DNA of 64,000 nucleotides from Eubacteriales bacterium (lineage in GTDB: Bacteria > Bacillota > Clostridia > Oscillospirales > CAG-382). Below, in pieces: positions 8,397 through 16,557 of this stretch. Position 1 is the first letter of the stretch, and the number at the start of each line of letters is the position of its first letter. The translations under genes were made by a program, and so were the position numbers. Below the pieces are notes generated by a model. It was not told where the DNA came from and did not search any database. It saw only the letters and a list, made by a program, of their open reading frames with translations. The DNA lies in contig JAQVPJ010000004.1 of assembly GCA_028702135.1 (NCBI GenBank), positions 1-64,000 on the forward strand. The letters are read 5' to 3'.

Positions 8397-8425
8397 TTGA
8401 CAAACGCTTTTATATGTGTTAATAT
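8397..8425 (+). promoter_or_regulatory. Promoter of the aromatic amino acid operon
   Basis: Perfect -35 TTGACA (8397-8402), a 17-base spacer and -10 TAATAT (8420-8425). Transcription would start near 8432, giving a leader of about 230 nt before aroF that contains the leader peptide and terminator. Confidence 0.85.
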
Positions 8426-8459
8426 TTAGAAAATCTTTTTTCAAAAGGAATATAACAAC

Positions 8460-8558
8460 ATGGCTTCTATGCTGCTTTCTGCTATATACTTTTACTTTTA
8501 TTTTTTCTTTTGCGGGAACAAAATAAAAGTGAATTCGCTTGCAGCAATAACAGAGTAA
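8460..8558 (+). CDS. Leader peptide of the aro operon (Tyr/Phe attenuator)
   Basis: A 32-codon reading frame with AAAAGGAA nine bases before the ATG. Codons 10-17 (8487-8510) read YFYFYFFF: three Tyr and five Phe in a row. Nothing in it suggests a working protein. The position between promoter and terminator is that of attenuation leaders such as E. coli pheL. When charged tRNA-Phe or tRNA-Tyr is scarce, a ribosome should stall on these codons. That would free 8539-8548 to pair with 8588-8596 and block the terminator. It is too short for ordinary gene calling. Confidence 0.88.
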   Translation: MASMLLSAIYFYFYFFFCGNKIKVNSLAAITE

Positions 8559-8596
8559 TCGTATAAATTACATGGGGTAATTTAAGGGTTCTGCGG
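8539..8596 (+). promoter_or_regulatory. Proposed antiterminator pairing and pre-terminator hairpin
   Basis: TTGCAG-c-AAT (8539-8548) can pair with the 5' arm of the terminator (8588-8596) as nine pairs, including G-U, with one bulged C. In between, AAATTAC (8565-8571) and GTAATTT (8577-8583) form a 7-bp hairpin next to the terminator. A ribosome finishing the leader at 8558 would cover 8539-8548 and let the terminator fold; a ribosome stalled at 8487-8510 would not. The pairing was found by eye, not by computed folding. Confidence 0.55.
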
Positions 8597-8621
8597 TGAT
8601 TTCACCAGCGGAACCCTTTTT
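8584..8621 (+). terminator. Attenuator terminator upstream of aroF
   Basis: AAGGGTTC (8584-8591) pairs perfectly with GAACCCTT (8611-8618). The helix continues inward through TGC/GCG and GGTG/CACC with one bulged A, and the hairpin is followed by TTTTT (8617-8621). It lies 42 bases before the aroF ATG and after the leader peptide, so it is a conditional terminator rather than the end of prs. Confidence 0.88.
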
Positions 8622-8662
8622 GATATATTTCTTTTAATCTTCTACGGAAAGAGTGATTATTT

Positions 8663-9664
8663 ATGATTGTCGTATTGCAGAACAACTGTGAACCCGAAAA
8701 AGTCGATCATCTCGAAAACTGGTTAGAAAACCTCGGTATCAAGGTCCACGTTTTTAAGGGAGAATTTCAGACTGTATTCGGTCTTATCGGAGATACCAGC
8801 GGAATAGATATCGGAATGCTTGAGGGTCTCGATGTAGTAAAAAGCGTAAAACGAATAAGCGAGCCCTATAAGAAAGCGAACAGACAGTTCCACCCAGAGG
8901 ATTCGGTAATAACAGCGGGCGGAGTTGAAATCGGCGGCGGGGAATTCCACTTTATCGCAGGTCCCTGCTCGATAGAGTCGGAAGCACAGATAATCGAAAT
9001 CGCAAAAAAGGTAAAGGCGGCAGGCGCATCATTTTTAAGGGGAGGAGCATACAAGCCGAGAACCTCTCCGTATGATTTTCAGGGGCTTAAGGATTTGGGC
9101 ATCTCGCTTCTTGTCGAAGCAAAAAGGGAGACAGGGCTGCCTATTGTGACCGAAATTATGAATGCAAATCACCTTCGCTATTTTGAGGAAGTAGATATTA
9201 TACAGGTAGGCGCACGGAATATGCAGAACTTTGAGCTTTTAAAGGAGCTTGGTCATACAAACAAAACCATTCTTTTAAAAAGAGGATTGTCAAGCACGAT
9301 AAAGGAGTTGTTAATGAGCGCCGAGTATATCATGGCAGGCGGGAACGAGGATATTATTTTATGCGAAAGAGGCATACGAACCTTTGAGACTCAAACGAGA
9401 AACACGCTTGATATTTCAGCGATTCCGGTTTTGAGGGAATACACTCATCTTCCGATAATAATCGATCCGAGCCATGCCTGCGGTGTTGCGAGATATGTTA
9501 AGCCTCTTGCCCTTGCCGCTGTCGCCGCTGGAGCACACGGGGTGATGATAGAGGTTCACAACGATCCAGCTCGCGCATTATGCGACGGTGCCCAGTCACT
9601 CACACCTGAACAGTTTCTGGACGTTAAAAACACTGCGGATAAAATTCTTGCAGCATTAAGATAA
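8663..9664 (+). CDS. aroF: 3-deoxy-7-phosphoheptulonate (DAHP) synthase, AroA-I-beta type
   Basis: A 333-residue enzyme that joins phosphoenolpyruvate and erythrose-4-phosphate, the first step of the shikimate pathway. An N-terminal ferredoxin-like regulatory domain (about 1-70, ending GLDVVKSVKRI) precedes the TIM-barrel with GPCSIESEAQI, RGGAYKPRTSPY and IDPSHACG. The added N-terminal domain is the type that confers aromatic feedback inhibition in Thermotoga-like enzymes. It is the first structural gene after the attenuator. The ATG at 8663 follows GGAAAGAG. Confidence 0.95.
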   Translation: MIVVLQNNCEPEKVDHLENWLENLGIKVHVFKGEFQTVFGLIGDTSGIDIGMLEGLDVVKSVKRISEPYKKANRQFHPEDSVITAGGVEIGGGEFHFIAGPCSIESEAQIIEIAKKVKAAGASFLRGGAYKPRTSPYDFQGLKDLGISLLVEAKRETGLPIVTEIMNANHLRYFEEVDIIQVGARNMQNFELLKELGHTNKTILLKRGLSSTIKELLMSAEYIMAGGNEDIILCERGIRTFETQTRNTLDISAIPVLREYTHLPIIIDPSHACGVARYVKPLALAAVAAGAHGVMIEVHNDPARALCDGAQSLTPEQFLDVKNTADKILAALR

Positions 9665-9674
9665 GGAGTTTTTT

Positions 9675-10730
9675 ATGATAACGGTAACCGTTCACGCTTC
9701 AAAGGAATATGATGTTTTAATCGGTCCGAAGCTACTGGAGCAATCCGGCGAACGTGCCCTGCAGCTTTTTAAAGCGGGAAAAACCGCTGTGATAACCGAT
9801 GATAAGGTTGATACACTGTATGCGAAAACGCTTTGCGATTCTCTTGAAAAAAGCGGTTTTTACGTCTGCAAAAAGGTTTTTCCAAATGGCGAAAAAATTA
9901 AAACGCCCGAAAATGCGATAGAAATCGTCGATTTTCTTGCTGAAAACAGGTTTACCCGCAGTGATGTCGTTTTCGCGCTCGGAGGAGGTACGGTGGGAGA
10001 TCTTTCCGGTTTTGCAGCTTCAATTTATCTGCGCGGGATAAAGCTTGTGCAGGTTCCTACAACACTCCTTGCGGCGGTGGATTCTTCTGTCGGCGGAAAA
10101 ACAGCCGTCAATCTCAAAGCGGGGAAAAATCTTGCGGGGAGCTTTTACCAGCCCGACTTGGTGCTGTGCGACACAAACACCCTGCAATCTCTGCCGGAGG
10201 GAGTTTTCCGCGACGGCTGTTCGGAGGTTATAAAATACGGTGTGATAAAGAGCAGGTCCCTGTTCGACGAATTAAAAAAAGACATAAAATGCAACCTTGA
10301 AGAAATCATTGGGGAATGCGTGAGGATAAAAAGCGATATAGTTGCGGTTGACGAGCAGGACAGAGGCGTAAGGCAGCTACTCAACTTCGGTCACACCATA
10401 GGTCATGCGATAGAACGGTTTTCGAATTTCTCGGTCCCGCACGGGGAGGCGGTAGCGATTGGTATGGTCGCCTCAGCGAGAGCGGCATATAAAAAGGGTT
10501 ACTGCAGTAGGGATGTATATGAAGAGATTTACGAACTGATAAAGCGTTACCGGCTTCCGGTTTCCACCGATATAAAAGCTGAGCAACTGCTCGACCCGGC
10601 ATTGTCTGATAAAAAGCGCGAGGAAGCGTATATATCGCTTGTCGTGCCGGAATATATAGGCGAAGCGGTGACAAAAAAGGTCTCTGTGGACGGTCTTTCG
10701 GAATTCATCAGGCTCGGTTTGAATGAATAA
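9675..10730 (+). CDS. aroB: 3-dehydroquinate synthase
   Basis: A 351-residue NAD- and metal-dependent cyclase, the second shikimate step. Seen are the NAD-binding GGGTVGDLSGFAAS, the VQVPTTLLAAVDSSVGGKT block and metal-ligand His in NFGHTIGHAIE and VPHGEAVAIGM. Full family length. It starts 10 bases after aroF behind AAGGAG. Confidence 0.97.
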   Translation: MITVTVHASKEYDVLIGPKLLEQSGERALQLFKAGKTAVITDDKVDTLYAKTLCDSLEKSGFYVCKKVFPNGEKIKTPENAIEIVDFLAENRFTRSDVVFALGGGTVGDLSGFAASIYLRGIKLVQVPTTLLAAVDSSVGGKTAVNLKAGKNLAGSFYQPDLVLCDTNTLQSLPEGVFRDGCSEVIKYGVIKSRSLFDELKKDIKCNLEEIIGECVRIKSDIVAVDEQDRGVRQLLNFGHTIGHAIERFSNFSVPHGEAVAIGMVASARAAYKKGYCSRDVYEEIYELIKRYRLPVSTDIKAEQLLDPALSDKKREEAYISLVVPEYIGEAVTKKVSVDGLSEFIRLGLNE

Positions 10731-10742
10731 GGAGTGCAGGTA

Positions 10743-12008
10743 ATGATTGTAAAAATAATCCCCTCCCCTCTCACGGGTAAAATCAATGCGATAAGCTCGA
10801 AATCACAAGCGCATCGTGCTTTTATTTGTGCTGCTTTATCGCAAAAACCCTCTTTTATCGAGTGCTCGGAGGTTTCTTCGGACATAGAATCCACTATCGG
10901 GTGTCTTACCGCCCTCGGAGCGAAAATCAACAAAAAAAACGGTTTTTATAAAGTTTTCCCCATAGAGCCGAGTGAAAAAAAGGCTTACCTTGACAGCGGT
11001 GAGAGCGGTTCGACTCTGCGTTTTATTCTGCCTGTTGTGTCCGCACTCGGCAGGACGGCGGTTTTTTCGGGACACGGCCGGCTCCCAAACCGCCCTATAA
11101 CTCCGCTTATTGAGCAGCTCAATGCTCACGGTGCGCAAATCAGCACTAATTTTCCAATTGAATGCGGTGGAAGATTAAGGGGCGGACACTTCCGAATAGC
11201 CGGAAATATCAGCTCGCAGTTCATAAGCGGACTTCTTCTTGCCTCCCCACTTTTAAAGGAAAAAACCATTATTGAGCTTACAACACCCCTGGAATCCAAG
11301 CCTTATATAGATATGACTATGTCGGTTATGAGCTTATACGATGTAGGAGTCGAAATAAACGATAACTGTTATGTTTTAAGTGAAAATAACGGGTACTGCG
11401 CACCCGAGAGCATCAGAATTGAGGGTGACTGGTCAAATGCTGCGTTCTGGCTCGCCTGTGGTGCTCTGGAAGGCGGCGGTATCAAATGCGGAAACCTGTC
11501 GCAGAACAGTCTTCAGGGGGACAAGGCGGTAACGAGCATTCTCTCACGCTTCGGAGCGCGTGTTTTTTCCGAAAACAATGCCATAAGCGTTTTTCCGGGA
11601 GAGTTGAAAGGTATTGATATCGATGCGTCCGATATTCCCGATCTCGTTCCCGTTCTTTCTGCGGTCGCCTGCGGCGCGTCCGGACAAACAAGGATTTATA
11701 ACGCCTCAAGGCTGAGATTAAAAGAGAGCGACAGGTTGCAAGCGGTTACAGATGCGTTGAGCAGTCTCGGTGCGGATATAACGCAGACCTCCGACGGGCT
11801 TGTTATCGGTGGAACGGGTAGATTAAAGGGCGGCAGGGCAAACGCAATGGGAGATCACAGGATTGCTATGAGTATTGCGGTTGCCGCAGTCATCTGTGAC
11901 GCTCCCGTCATAATAGAAAACGCAGAGGCAGTCAACAAGTCGTATCCGGATTTTTATACGGATTATATAAAATTAGGCGCTATTATTGAACAGAAAGGAT
12001 TGATCTGA
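10743..12008 (+). CDS. aroA: 5-enolpyruvylshikimate-3-phosphate (EPSP) synthase
   Basis: A 421-residue two-domain enzyme. It has SSKSQAHRAF (binding Lys/Ser/Arg near the N-terminus), the LDSGESGSTLRFILP loop (LFLGNAGTAMRPL equivalent), and RLRLKESDRL and GDHRIAMS in the C-terminal half. A GTG at 10734 is in frame but overlaps the AAGGAG ribosome site. The ATG at 10743 is 8 bases beyond that site and is the better start. It follows aroB by 12 bases. Confidence 0.96.
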   Translation: MIVKIIPSPLTGKINAISSKSQAHRAFICAALSQKPSFIECSEVSSDIESTIGCLTALGAKINKKNGFYKVFPIEPSEKKAYLDSGESGSTLRFILPVVSALGRTAVFSGHGRLPNRPITPLIEQLNAHGAQISTNFPIECGGRLRGGHFRIAGNISSQFISGLLLASPLLKEKTIIELTTPLESKPYIDMTMSVMSLYDVGVEINDNCYVLSENNGYCAPESIRIEGDWSNAAFWLACGALEGGGIKCGNLSQNSLQGDKAVTSILSRFGARVFSENNAISVFPGELKGIDIDASDIPDLVPVLSAVACGASGQTRIYNASRLRLKESDRLQAVTDALSSLGADITQTSDGLVIGGTGRLKGGRANAMGDHRIAMSIAVAAVICDAPVIIENAEAVNKSYPDFYTDYIKLGAIIEQKGLI

Positions 12009-13094
12009 ATGTCCTCTGTATACGGAGAAACTCTGAAGGTATCCCTCTTCGGTCAGTCGCATTCCGAATTTATAGGCGTAGTAATCGACGGTATGCCGAG
12101 CGGGTTTAAGGTCGATATCCCGCGTTTGCAGCGGTTTATGCTCAGGCGTGCGGCAAGAAGCGCGCTTTCTACAAAAAGGCAGGAGCCGGATGTTCCGGAA
12201 TTTCTGTCGGGATTAACAGACGGAGTTACCTGCGGCGCACCGATATGCGCTGTAATACGGAACACTAACGTCAAAAGCGGTGATTATGATAGTTTAAGGT
12301 GCATACCCCGTCCGTCGCATGCTGATTACGCCGCGATGTGTAAGCACGGTAAAGCCGCTGATTTAAGGGGCGGCGGACATCTTTCGGGCAGGATAACCGC
12401 TGCATTATGCGTTGCTGGCGGCATCTGCTTACAATATCTCGAAAATGCGGGTATCTCTATCGGCGCGCATATCTACTCGCTCGCCGGAATCAAGGACACA
12501 CCTTTTAATCCGGTAAGTGTTTCCGCCAAAGACTTTTTGAGTATCGCCGAAAAGGATTTTCCTGTTATTAATGATTCTGCCTCCGATAAGATGATGAGCA
12601 GGATTATGCAGGCAAGGGAGGCAAAGGATTCCATAGGCGGAATCATAGAGTTCGCTGTAACGGGACTTAAGCCGGGCTTGGGTGCTCCCCATTTCGGAGG
12701 GTTAGAAAACCGTATTTCTGCGGCTGTATTCGGGATACCCGCCGTAAAGGGTATTGAATTCGGGAACGGCTTCGCCTGTGCGGATATGACCGGATCTGAG
12801 AATAACGATGCTTTTTATATAGGCGATGACGGAGTTTATACCGCTACAAACAACAGCGGCGGAATTAACGGCGGGATGAGCAACGGAATGCCGCTTATAG
12901 GCAGGGCAGCGATAAAACCCACACCCTCTGTTTCGCAGGAACAGGATAGTGTAAATATGGAGACGGGGAAAAACACAAGTATTACAATCAGCGGCAGACA
13001 TGACCCGTGTATAGTCCACAGAGCCGTTCCCTGCTTAGAAGCCGCAGTAGCGATAGCGATTACCGACACAATATTGACAGATAAACGAGGATAA
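12009..13094 (+). CDS. aroC: Chorismate synthase
   Basis: A 361-residue FMN-dependent lyase making chorismate. Signatures are the N-terminal GETLKVSLFGQSHSEFIGVV, PRPSHADYAAM and DLRGGGHLSGRITA, and the later GGLENRISAAVFGIPAVKGIEFG and NNSGGINGGMSNG. The ATG directly follows the aroA TGA, so the two are probably translationally coupled. Confidence 0.96.
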   Translation: MSSVYGETLKVSLFGQSHSEFIGVVIDGMPSGFKVDIPRLQRFMLRRAARSALSTKRQEPDVPEFLSGLTDGVTCGAPICAVIRNTNVKSGDYDSLRCIPRPSHADYAAMCKHGKAADLRGGGHLSGRITAALCVAGGICLQYLENAGISIGAHIYSLAGIKDTPFNPVSVSAKDFLSIAEKDFPVINDSASDKMMSRIMQAREAKDSIGGIIEFAVTGLKPGLGAPHFGGLENRISAAVFGIPAVKGIEFGNGFACADMTGSENNDAFYIGDDGVYTATNNSGGINGGMSNGMPLIGRAAIKPTPSVSQEQDSVNMETGKNTSITISGRHDPCIVHRAVPCLEAAVAIAITDTILTDKRG

Positions 13095-13100
13095 GCACCT

Positions 13101-14243
13101 ATGAAAATTGAAGATTTGAGAGAAGAAATAGACAGAACCGATGCTATGCTTGTGGAGCTTTTCAATCGAAGGATGGATATAGTCAAGAGTATTGCAGAGT
13201 ATAAAACCGAGAACAATATTCCGATCTATGACAGCGAGCGGGAGCGCAAGCTTTTTGATAGGGTTGCTACCCTTGCGGGGGAAAAAACCCAGGCATATGT
13301 ACGCACTCTTTATGCGGTGATTACAGATTTAAGCCGCTCTTATCAGGGCAGTATTATTCACAAAGAGAGCGGGATCGTATCAAAAATCAAGTCCGCGCTT
13401 GAAAATACCCCCAAGCTTTTTCCGCAAAAAGCGACAGTCGCCTGTCAGGGAACCGAGGGCGCATACTCTCAGCTTGCCTGCGAAAAGCTGTTTGAGCTGC
13501 CCTCCATAATGTACTTCAACAACTGGGACAATGTTTTTTCGGCAGTGGAATCAGGGCTTTGCCGATATGGAATTCTGCCTATCGAAAACAGCACCGCAGG
13601 AACAGTGAACCGCATTTATGACCTTATGACGGATAATAATTTTAGTATAGTAAGGAGCGTAAAGATAAAAACAAGCCATACTCTGCTCGTAAACAGCGGA
13701 GTAAAGCTTTCGGATGTAAAAGAGATAATCTCTCATGAGCAGGCGATACAGCAGTGCGATAACTTTTTAAGAGAGCTTAAGGGCGTAAAGGTCACCTACT
13801 GCGAAAACACCGCCGTCGCTGCAAAAACCGTTCGGGATTCTGGCAGAAAGGACCTTGCGGCAATCTCCTCACGCCCCTGCTCCGCGCTCTACGGGCTTAG
13901 CATACTTCCGAACTCTATACAGAACAACGACGTAAACTATACCCGTTTTATATGTATTTCAAAAAATACGGAGATATATCCCGGTGCAAACAAAACCAGT
14001 TTTATGCTCTCTGTTCCCAACAAGCCCGGCTCTCTTTACCGTGTAATGTCGAAGTTTTCCGCACTCGGCATAAACCTGACAAAGCTTGAGAGCCGCCCGA
14101 TACCGGGGAGCGAGTTTGAATTTTTGTTCTATCTTGATGTGGAAAGCTCCGTATATTCGCCTGCACTATTTGAGCTGATCAACGAGCTTGCTTATGGTAC
14201 AGACAGATTCCGTTATCTCGGAAGCTATTCGGAGATGACCTGA
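13101..14243 (+). CDS. pheA: Bifunctional chorismate mutase / prephenate dehydratase (P-protein)
   Basis: A 380-residue protein of three domains. An AroQ-type chorismate mutase (about 1-90; LREEIDRTDAMLVELFNRR, IPIYDSERE) is followed by a prephenate dehydratase (about 110-290; VACQGTEGAYSQLA, GILPIENSTAGTVN) and an ACT domain (SFMLSVPNKPGSLYRVM). The ESRP motif for Phe binding is present (KLESRPIPG), so Phe feedback inhibition is expected. This makes Phe the committed product of the operon and agrees with the Phe-rich leader peptide. Confidence 0.96.
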   Translation: MKIEDLREEIDRTDAMLVELFNRRMDIVKSIAEYKTENNIPIYDSERERKLFDRVATLAGEKTQAYVRTLYAVITDLSRSYQGSIIHKESGIVSKIKSALENTPKLFPQKATVACQGTEGAYSQLACEKLFELPSIMYFNNWDNVFSAVESGLCRYGILPIENSTAGTVNRIYDLMTDNNFSIVRSVKIKTSHTLLVNSGVKLSDVKEIISHEQAIQQCDNFLRELKGVKVTYCENTAVAAKTVRDSGRKDLAAISSRPCSALYGLSILPNSIQNNDVNYTRFICISKNTEIYPGANKTSFMLSVPNKPGSLYRVMSKFSALGINLTKLESRPIPGSEFEFLFYLDVESSVYSPALFELINELAYGTDRFRYLGSYSEMT

Positions 14244-15469
14244 TGAAAGTATACGGATTATTAGGCGGCAGGTTAGGACACAGCTTTTCTCCTCAGATTC
14301 ACTCTGTTTTCGGCGATTATGAGTACAGACTGTTCCCGCGTGCAAAGCATGAGATTGATGAGTTTTTTTCTAAAAGGGAATTTGCCGGGATAAATGTGAC
14401 CATTCCCTACAAACAGACGGTTATCCCCTACTGCGACGTTATTTCACCGATTGCACAGAGGCTTCACAGCATTAACACGATTACTGTACAGCCCGACGGT
14501 ACACTTCACGGGGATAATACCGATTACAGAGGTTTTTTGTATATGCTCGGCAGAGCGGGAATCTCCGTTAAGGGAAAAAACACGCTCGTACTCGGTAGCG
14601 GAGGTTCTTCCCATACTGTATGTGCGGCCTTGGAAGATGAAGGAGCAAAAAAAATCACAGTATTTAAAAGGAGTGATATTGAGAATTATGCAAACCTCAT
14701 CATTGACAAGGAAATACAGATAATCATAAACTGCACTCCTGTCGGAATGTATCCCGATAACGGAAAAAGCCCTGTAAACCTTAGTGATTTTCCAAAATGT
14801 GAAGCTGTTGCAGACCTTATTTACAATCCCGATAAAACGGAGTTGTTATTACAAGCAAAAAAGCTGGGATTAAATTATGTTAACGGGCTTACAATGCTTG
14901 TCGCGCAGGCAAAATACTCCTCGGAACTGTTTACCGGTACACAGCTTGACGAAGGTATGATCGAAAAAGCACTTAAATCCGTGAGGAACGAGATGCGGAA
15001 CATCGTCCTTATCGGGATGCCCGGCAGTGGTAAAACCAGCGTAGGAAAGCGGTTATCCGAGCTGATGAAAAGGCGGTTTTTCGATTCAGACGAGATAATC
15101 ACAAGGGTTTATGAAAAAAATCCCGCCGAAATTATCGAAAAAAAGGGAGAATCGTTTTTCCGCTTAATAGAAGCCACGGTTATCAGCGAAGCGGGAAAAG
15201 CGACCTCAGCGGTCATCTCAACGGGCGGCGGAGCCGTTATAAACGAGCAGAATATAGATTATCTGCGGCAAAACGGGATAATAATTTTTCTCGAACGCGA
15301 CCTTGGTTTGCTTGATGTTACCTGCAGACCGCTCTCAAGCGGTAAAAACGCTTTACAAGCACTTTATAATGCACGAATTCCGCTTTACAGAAAGTATGCC
15401 GATTACATTGTTGACGGAAACGGAAGCATCGAAGAGACAGCAAAAAAAATAACAGAGATACTGAAATAA
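14243..15469 (+). CDS. aroE-aroK: Fused shikimate dehydrogenase / shikimate kinase
   Basis: One 408-residue chain. Residues 1-about 248 are shikimate dehydrogenase: SFSPQIHS binding loop, catalytic Lys57 in NVTIPYK, Asp94 in DNTDY, and a Gly-rich NADP loop (LVLGSGGSSHT, slightly atypical). From about 252 it is shikimate kinase: Walker A GMPGSGKTS (258-266), DSDE, an STGGGAV loop and an adenine-lid region with RPLSSG. Two consecutive pathway steps are therefore joined. The start overlaps the pheA stop (TGATG). It ends the operon; no 3-dehydroquinate dehydratase (aroD/aroQ) or tyrA is in the window. Confidence 0.95.
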   Translation: MKVYGLLGGRLGHSFSPQIHSVFGDYEYRLFPRAKHEIDEFFSKREFAGINVTIPYKQTVIPYCDVISPIAQRLHSINTITVQPDGTLHGDNTDYRGFLYMLGRAGISVKGKNTLVLGSGGSSHTVCAALEDEGAKKITVFKRSDIENYANLIIDKEIQIIINCTPVGMYPDNGKSPVNLSDFPKCEAVADLIYNPDKTELLLQAKKLGLNYVNGLTMLVAQAKYSSELFTGTQLDEGMIEKALKSVRNEMRNIVLIGMPGSGKTSVGKRLSELMKRRFFDSDEIITRVYEKNPAEIIEKKGESFFRLIEATVISEAGKATSAVISTGGGAVINEQNIDYLRQNGIIIFLERDLGLLDVTCRPLSSGKNALQALYNARIPLYRKYADYIVDGNGSIEETAKKITEILK

Positions 15470-15479
15470 GCATATATAA

Positions 15480-15503
15480 GGGCAGTTCCGTGCGGAACTG
15501 CCC
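15480..15503. terminator. Hairpin between convergent aroE-aroK and the oxidoreductase gene
   Basis: GGGCAGTTCCG (15480-15490) and CGGAACTGCCC (15493-15503) form a perfect 11-bp stem. It starts 10 bases after the aroE-aroK stop and lies between convergent genes. No T-run follows on either strand, so it may pause or protect 3' ends rather than act as a classical intrinsic terminator. Confidence 0.65.
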
Positions 15504-15528
15504 AATTTCAAGGTATGTTAAAGGTATG

Positions 15529-16557
15529 TTATCTGTTAAGGTATACTCTCTTGTTCTCTTTGCCGCTCTCATAAATCGCACAAATCATTTCCTGTGTTTT
15601 ATAAGCGCTCTCTACGGGAATAAACGGTGTTCCGGACTCGATTGTCTCATAAAAATTCTTTATCTGCTTTGCATGATTTACACCCCAATAGGACTTTACA
15701 TTGCCGTAGTCGAATTTCTCGTTAGGATCTCTCTCGGCGATAATGGTCCTGCCGTCAAAGAATCTTATTGTCGCTTTATCAGCTACCATTTCAACAACAG
15801 CCTTCTCACAGGCAAACTCGATTTCGACATCGGCATCATAAGAATAATAATTAATAGCATGGAAGTTTGTCATAAGCCCGCTCTTGTAAACGATTATGCC
15901 TTCGGCGGTATCCTCAACCTCAATCTTTGCGTGACCTCTCTTGGCTATCGTCGCATCGATAAAATCTATATCCTCGTTGATTATATGGCGCATCATATCG
16001 AGCGTATGGATCGCTTGGTCTATAATAACGCCGCCGCCTTCTTTATCCCATGTTCCCTTCCAGTCGCTTCCGCCGTAATAGTCGTCGGATCTGTTCCATG
16101 TGACAAAGCATTTTGCGGACAGTATTTTACCGAGTGTGCCGCTTTCGTACTGTTCTTTTACGAGTAATGTGCCGGCATTATAATGGTTCTGGAAGATACA
16201 GCCCAAGCGTACACCGCACTTTTTTGCGGTATCTATCATTGCTTTTGATTCTTCGAGCTTTATCGACATAGGCTTTTCGGTCAGGACATGCTTGCCATGC
16301 TCCATACAGTAAATAGCTACTATTGAATGCAGATAGTGCGGTAAGCAGAGATGAACGGCGTCGATTTCCTCTTTTTCGAGCATTTCCTTATAATCGGTAT
16401 ACCACCTGCAGCCAAACTCGGCCGCCTTTTCCCTGGCACGGTCTTCCTTAACATCACATACTGCGACAAGCTCCGCATTTTCGCATTCCATGACGCCTAC
16501 GGCATGCATCGGAAAAATATTTCCGCAACCGATTATGGCAGCCTTGTAATTCTTCAT
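15529..16557 (-). CDS. Gfo/Idh/MocA family NAD(P)-dependent oxidoreductase
   Basis: A 342-residue protein with an N-terminal Rossmann domain (AAIIGCGNIFPMHA) and the EKP motif (LTEKPMS) that carries the conserved catalytic-region Lys. The C-terminal mixed domain has GGGVIIDQAIHTLD, where the His-Asp pair aligns with the active site of sugar and inositol dehydrogenases. The substrate cannot be told from sequence, but is probably a sugar or cyclitol. GGAGG lies 7 bases before the ATG. It is monocistronic and divergent from the deaminase gene. Confidence 0.88.
   Translation of the reverse strand: MKNYKAAIIGCGNIFPMHAVGVMECENAELVAVCDVKEDRAREKAAEFGCRWYTDYKEMLEKEEIDAVHLCLPHYLHSIVAIYCMEHGKHVLTEKPMSIKLEESKAMIDTAKKCGVRLGCIFQNHYNAGTLLVKEQYESGTLGKILSAKCFVTWNRSDDYYGGSDWKGTWDKEGGGVIIDQAIHTLDMMRHIINEDIDFIDATIAKRGHAKIEVEDTAEGIIVYKSGLMTNFHAINYYSYDADVEIEFACEKAVVEMVADKATIRFFDGRTIIAERDPNEKFDYGNVKSYWGVNHAKQIKNFYETIESGTPFIPVESAYKTQEMICAIYESGKENKRVYLNR

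Follow-up and report, generated by a model that had tools for sequence, protein, structure and literature searches.

How is the aromatic amino acid operon that begins with aroF regulated in this Eubacteriales bacterium, and what part does the small aromatic-rich reading frame ahead of it play? We examined the locus in a window of 64,000 nucleotides, which is the whole stretch of DNA that was analysed, and computed its parts, their conservation, their mutually exclusive pairings, and folds in which a ribosome masks part of the RNA. Judged from these, the locus is very probably a classical ribosome-mediated transcription attenuator, and leader-peptide attenuators at aroF are, on sequence, apparently widespread in Clostridia.

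Architecture of the aroF leader

The region between the promoter and aroF contains the following elements.

8397-8425, + strand: sigma-70 type promoter, TTGACA-17-TAATAT with TG ahead of the -10, read from sequence
8460-8558, + strand: leader peptide gene of 32 codons with its stop codon at 8556-8558, an open reading frame conserved in congeners
8470-8475, + strand: region 1 (TGCTGC), outer strand of the protector hairpin, from the fold and comparison with congeners
8487-8510, + strand: control codons 10-17, Tyr-Phe-Tyr-Phe-Tyr-Phe-Phe-Phe, from translation of the leader frame
8495-8507, + strand: 5' arm of the inner protector stem (CTTTTATTTTTTC), within the control codons, identical in congeners and present in the MFE fold
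8516-8529, + strand: 3' arm of the inner protector stem (GAACAAAATAAAAG), from congener comparison and fold
8530-8547, + strand: region 2, with its core TTGCAGCAA at 8539-8547, pairing with region 1 (protector) or region 3 (antiterminator)
8555-8571, + strand: small hairpin GTAAT-CGTATAA-ATTAC between regions 2 and 3, from the fold
8584-8621, + strand: intrinsic terminator (attenuator), hairpin score about -25
8591-8599, + strand: region 3 (CTGCGGTGA), in the 5' arm of the terminator, partner of region 2, from the fold

A first-pass annotation of the sequence had claimed the promoter, a 32-codon frame with a good ribosome site and codons 10-17 reading YFYFYFFF, a small hairpin, and a strong terminator, and all of these held up. 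The TTGACA box and the -10 region were found again in both congeners, the leader ribosome site is AAAAGGA at a spacing of 10 nt (duplex with the anti-Shine-Dalgarno sequence of -5.8 kcal/mol), and folding reproduced the hairpin and the terminator, which ends about 40 nt before the aroF start at 8663. The predicted leader peptide is MASMLLSAIYFYFYFFFCGNKIKVNSLAAITE. The antiterminator proposed earlier, 8539-8548 with 8588-8596, lies close to the pairing that we computed, 8539-8544 with 8591-8596, extended upstream.

Two congener genomes (L083, L084) have the same layout ahead of aroF, with the leader, inner stem, and terminator kept; their leader peptides are MIAVLFAAIFFYFYFFSHENKIKVISLAAKSV and MKTMLFAAIYFSFYFFFSGNKIKVVSLAAKTM. 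The comparison with relatives suggested in the first-pass annotation thus came out in its favor, as the aromatic run and terminator are retained in both. The control codons lie within a one-bulge stem in which CTTTTATTTTTTC is paired to GAACAAAATAAAAG, the bulged base being T in L084, and a hairpin is possible at the position of the small hairpin in both congeners, formed from different sequence. Throughout the genus the 5' arm of the terminator keeps GGGTTCTGCGGTGA while its 3' arm changes within pairing rules, which is expected since the 5' strand serves two partners. Region 1 of the window is degenerate relative to the TTTGCTGCAA of the congeners.

Genes of the downstream operon

The terminator is followed by six genes on the same strand.

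8663-9664, + strand: aroF, DAHP synthase (NF006421, TIGR01361)
9675-10730, + strand: aroB (TIGR01357)
10734-12008, + strand: aroA (TIGR01356)
12009-13094, + strand: aroC (TIGR00033)
13101-14243, + strand: pheA, chorismate mutase-prephenate dehydratase; models for prephenate dehydratase (112-377) and chorismate mutase (4-82) match slightly under curated cut-offs
14243-15469, + strand: aroE-aroK fusion, shikimate dehydrogenase-shikimate kinase; both families match in separate halves, under cut-offs

The operon had been described as a full aromatic amino acid operon of six genes; the six genes are there, but "full" is too much, because tyrA sits elsewhere in the genome behind a second aroF and a family-model scan found no dehydroquinate dehydratase among the six. 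A plus-strand open reading frame after aroE/K (15490-16167) matched no family and overlaps an inositol-dehydrogenase-like gene on the minus strand (15529-16557). We doubt that this frame is a gene and place the likely end of the operon at 15469.

Pairing regions across leaders

Comparing leaders side by side revealed three typical regions: region 1, TTTGCAGC, translated Phe-Ala-Ala directly ahead of the aromatic run; region 2, AAGTGATTTNTGCTGC, 3' of the run; and region 3, GCAGTGAA, within the terminator 5' arm. Region 2 is able to pair with either region 1 or region 3. In relatives the AAGTGATTTNTGCTGC element is read in varying frames (LCCK, LQKK, SAAK) or lies past the stop codon; what is conserved is therefore the RNA. 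In the genus of the window all three regions are flipped together (TTTGCTGC, TTGCAGCAA, CTGCGG), giving the polarity GCTGC/GCAGC/CTGC versus GCAGC/GCTGC/GCAG in other leaders.

Because leaders align poorly outside the genus, pairing was tested per region by shuffles and cross-species swaps. Treating leaders as independent (n=69), native pairs beat swapped ones for both 1:2 (mean percentile 0.27, KS 3e-9) and 2:3 (0.28, KS 3e-7), and the same swap test on 45 further leaders that were not used to notice the pattern gave 0.26 and 0.21, respectively. In 62 of the 69 leaders, regions 1 and 3 target overlapping sites on region 2 (p 1e-8). Shuffle z-scores, again with leaders treated as independent, were modest (means of -1.1 to -1.4); the pairing signal resides in the ensemble of leaders.

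Folding with a masked ribosome

The first-pass annotation had suggested folding the leader with the ribosome footprint masked. We did so at equilibrium on a transcript truncated within the terminator loop and read out how probable the pairing of region 3 with region 2 is. In the window the mean probability was 0.75 with the ribosome at codons 10-11 and 0.05 with the ribosome at the stop codon, as the earlier reading had anticipated. Stalls at codons 12-18 gave only 0.47-0.56, below the early stalls, and free RNA without a ribosome already reached 0.70, so close to the stalled value that the window alone is not a clean stalled-versus-stop case. Region 1 has decayed in the window (CTTTCTGCT versus TTTGCTGCA in congeners) and the protector pairing is weaker in this species, so the antiterminator is likely even without a ribosome. 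Across 72 leaders, pairing of region 3 with region 2 was 0.54 when stalled, 0.32 in free RNA, and 0.25 at the stop (62/72, p~1e-10). The terminator is present in the equilibrium fold of the full-length leader without a ribosome, and the switch would thus have to be kinetic and timing-dependent.

Proposed mechanism

Starting at the promoter (8397-8425), RNA polymerase would make the leader RNA with a ribosome following behind on the 32-codon frame. With charged Tyr- and Phe-tRNA available, the ribosome would pass codons 10-17, reach the stop codon at 8556-8558, and cover region 2, allowing the terminator at 8584-8621 to form; once the ribosome is gone, the 1:2 protector hairpin would keep hold of region 2. 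If charged Tyr- or Phe-tRNA were scarce, the ribosome would halt in the run and cover region 1 plus the protector 5' arm. Region 2 could then pair with region 3 before the terminator is complete, its 5' part pairing with the start of the terminator 3' arm, and transcription would proceed into aroF-aroB-aroA-aroC-pheA-aroE/K. We infer from this arrangement of sequence elements that the leader is translated, that the ribosome stalls, and that the operon responds to Phe and Tyr.

The locus brings together what defines such attenuators: a short leader, predicted to be translatable, with tandem codons for the regulated amino acids; an intrinsic terminator between the leader and the first structural gene; an antiterminator exclusive with both the terminator and the protector pairing; equilibrium folds in which a stall favors the antiterminator and a ribosome at the stop the terminator; and genes predicted to make the amino acids that are presumably sensed. 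The earlier reading of the locus as ribosome-mediated attenuation is supported by conserved aromatic codons that coincide with the best Shine-Dalgarno sequence, the exclusive pairings, and the masked folds. Our analysis goes beyond that reading in the protector 1:2 hairpin with control codons in its inner stem, the Tyr-rich leader of a second operon, and the spread over the class.

Spread over Clostridia

About 100 aroF loci were chosen on aroF similarity alone and kept if a small upstream ORF had at least six aromatic residues in ten codons. This was true of 72, which have a similar leader plus terminator and include the cultured strains Aminicella lysinilytica, Emergencia sp., Sporobacter termitidis, Yanshouia hominis, and Angelakisella massiliensis. 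In a class-level sample, 62 of 89 aroF upstream regions carried an aromatic small ORF at this threshold, though the draw was biased toward aroF genes resembling that of the window, so this 70% is not the prevalence for the whole class. At a threshold of at least seven in ten codons, such ORFs were present in 48 of the 89 regions and in 26 of the 41 sampled families. Regions upstream of 989 other genes gave 1.2% and 0.2% at the two thresholds and Markov-resampled sequence 4.8% and 1.0%, which ruled out the chance origin of aromatic ORFs from T-rich sequence. Among the 103 regions that have an aromatic ORF, it is also the small ORF with the strongest Shine-Dalgarno sequence in 91 (45 expected, p 7e-21).

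Roughly 30% of the sampled aroF upstream regions lack such a leader. At one locus (L036), an aromatic leader (MNGRLNLNGTKAYYFYFSQSFYFSAGYF) lies roughly 1 kb ahead of aroF, before another ORF (start 5968); the leader of some loci counted as leaderless may therefore lie further upstream. Aromatic leaders also precede aroF in contigs binned to other phyla, a Treponemataceae MAG (L035) and a Lentisphaerae MAG (L056), which may reflect horizontal transfer or wrong binning.

Codon content and a second aroF operon

The window genome has a second operon, aroF2-tyrA, with a leader and terminator of its own.

G000:C26:86104-87093 (locus L107, 9241-11136), minus strand: aroF2-tyrA operon; Tyr-rich leader (YYYGSRYYY), separate terminator

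Its leader peptide is MTIKLTAVTENYYYGSRYYYAVFSSYCSLL, and a similar leader lies ahead of the second aroF of both congeners (L085, L086). Phe and Tyr codons number 5:21 in the three aroF2-tyrA leaders versus 17:7 in the three aroF-operon leaders (p 5e-4). Among relatives, the ratio is 34:14 for operons with pheA and without tyrA versus 31:32 for the reverse (p 0.03, from few operons). The leader codons, as translated from sequence, fit the genes that they are predicted to control.

The window leader has no Trp codon, and trpE was not detected in the window genome, which is 93% complete. Leaders with Trp codons were more common from genomes with trpE (11/15 versus 10/36, p 0.003, counting genomes as independent), yet one congener (G001) has trpE and a leader without a Trp codon. 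Several clostridial families share a leader peptide like FYFSWGYFYFSAGYFCC that includes a Trp codon (L171, L175, L158, L188, L165, and others), and these leaders may sense all three aromatic amino acids. We also looked for a His leader before hisG of the window genome and saw none.

T-boxes and Rfam families

The T-box covariance model (RF00230) had no match at the locus, and at the permissive threshold Rfam returned only matches far under family cut-offs there. At the gathering score, no Rfam family, including Phe_leader, matched the window element or 39 further loci. The claim that no T-box motif is present thus stands, but the accompanying contrast, that Bacillota mostly use T-boxes or protein regulators for these pathways, was too simple, because T-boxes occur elsewhere in the same genome beside this T-box-free locus.

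One T-box match, below the Rfam cut-off, lies ahead of a TrpB-like (TrpB2-type) gene (L111); this gene and the undetected trpE would fit tryptophan synthesis from indole, or an indole acid, obtained by salvage. Three further T-box matches, one above and two below the Rfam cut-off (L108, L112, and L113, on G000:C38, C35, and C27), precede AMP-forming acyl-CoA ligase-like sequence (family scan of the L108 protein only), and these genes are possibly linked to aromatic acid use.

Alternative explanations

The leader could instead encode a small functional or structural peptide, for example in the membrane, with the terminator as the ordinary end of an upstream transcript. The peptide is indeed hydrophobic, and the genus conserves the stretch NKIKVxSLAA in its C-terminal part, but RNA pairing explains that conservation; we dropped NKIKVxSLAA as a sign of a functional peptide since the RNA element behind it, AAGTGATTTNTGCTGC, changes frame or follows the stop codon in relatives. 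The promoter directly upstream of the leader also argues against an upstream transcript, and we regard this explanation as very unlikely. No more credible is an incidental aromatic ORF beside a terminator run by a T-box, riboswitch, or protein-binding attenuator. The genome does have T-boxes at other places, including before the TrpB-like gene, but at the gathering score no Rfam family matched the window element or the related loci scanned, the aromatic run recurs with the best Shine-Dalgarno sequence in most relatives, and codon choice tracks gene content.

Translational control, in which leader structure sets access to the aroF ribosome site, would suit the short distance between the terminator and aroF and the weak terminator scores of some relatives. 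Nearly all relatives have a strong hairpin with a T-run, however (-25 in the window, mean of -19 in the second set), and the paired regions lie within the terminator, away from the aroF Shine-Dalgarno sequence, leaving this possibility exceedingly slim.

Keeping to ribosome-mediated attenuation, we lean slightly toward an ancestral origin, with such attenuators before aroF regulating the shikimate pathway throughout the class Clostridia. In this view, the control codons (Phe, Tyr, sometimes Trp) are tuned to whichever branches a genome has, and T-boxes operate alongside in the same cell.

Comparison with known systems

Leader-peptide attenuators are usually taught as enterobacterial, with T-boxes as their Bacillota counterpart. 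In the enterobacterial pheA/pheST, trp, and his systems, a short leader rich in codons for the product precedes protector, antiterminator, and terminator pairings and biosynthetic genes, and Rfam Phe_leader is of this enterobacterial type. The window shares the product-codon leader, the three pairings, and the (predicted) control of biosynthetic genes, but differs in its mixed Tyr/Phe codons, its six-gene common-pathway operon, its occurrence in Clostridia, and its lack of an Rfam match; its control codons are themselves part of the protector stem.

The uORFC-13-1 motif (PMC8632094) lies upstream of aroF in Acholeplasma and environmental sequences, comprises only 24 sequences, and has been proposed to act by attenuation. 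By its published description, through which alone we liken the two, it shares with the window a uORF with Phe codon(s) and an intrinsic terminator before aroF, though it has at least one Phe codon versus the Tyr/Phe run of the window (PMC8632094). Stav et al. 2019 (PMC6429828, Fig. 6b) presented two candidate uORFs with Phe/Tyr codons at shikimate genes as figure examples from a screen of five genomes including Clostridium novyi; the main text of that paper does not give their host, pairing model, or distribution. A 2010 comparative attenuation survey (Lopatovskaya et al., Mol Biol 44:128, cited in PMC4833913 and PMC10272879) possibly includes clostridial cases. Ribosome-mediated attenuation is thus a known kind of control, and Phe/Tyr uORFs at shikimate genes have been noted before on a small scale; in the literature searched, which did not include the 2010 Lopatovskaya survey, we found no description of the breadth, pairing scheme, or codon-to-pathway fit reported here. 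Our results point to sensing of Phe and Tyr, and sometimes Trp, via translation of an aroF leader in much of the class Clostridia, many gut and rumen species among them. If true, this would account for how aromatic amino acid synthesis is controlled in a large group in which few regulators have been studied. Annotation would gain as well, as the leaders scanned matched no Rfam family, and the leaders offer a system for comparing control codons with pathway content over many genomes.

Regular amino acid attenuators are also known from Bacillota in the Bacilli, where a His leader precedes hisZ/hisS* (PMC2965389) and a Leu-rich ilv attenuator is found in Staphylococcus aureus (PMC5794164), although these concern other amino acids and other genes. 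The tyrosine operon of the B. cereus group is preceded by a T-box riboswitch (PMC2494555). In such aromatic-operon T-boxes, tRNA charging controls termination, as proposed for the window; unlike them, the window has no T-box match, and its sensing is proposed to occur by translation.
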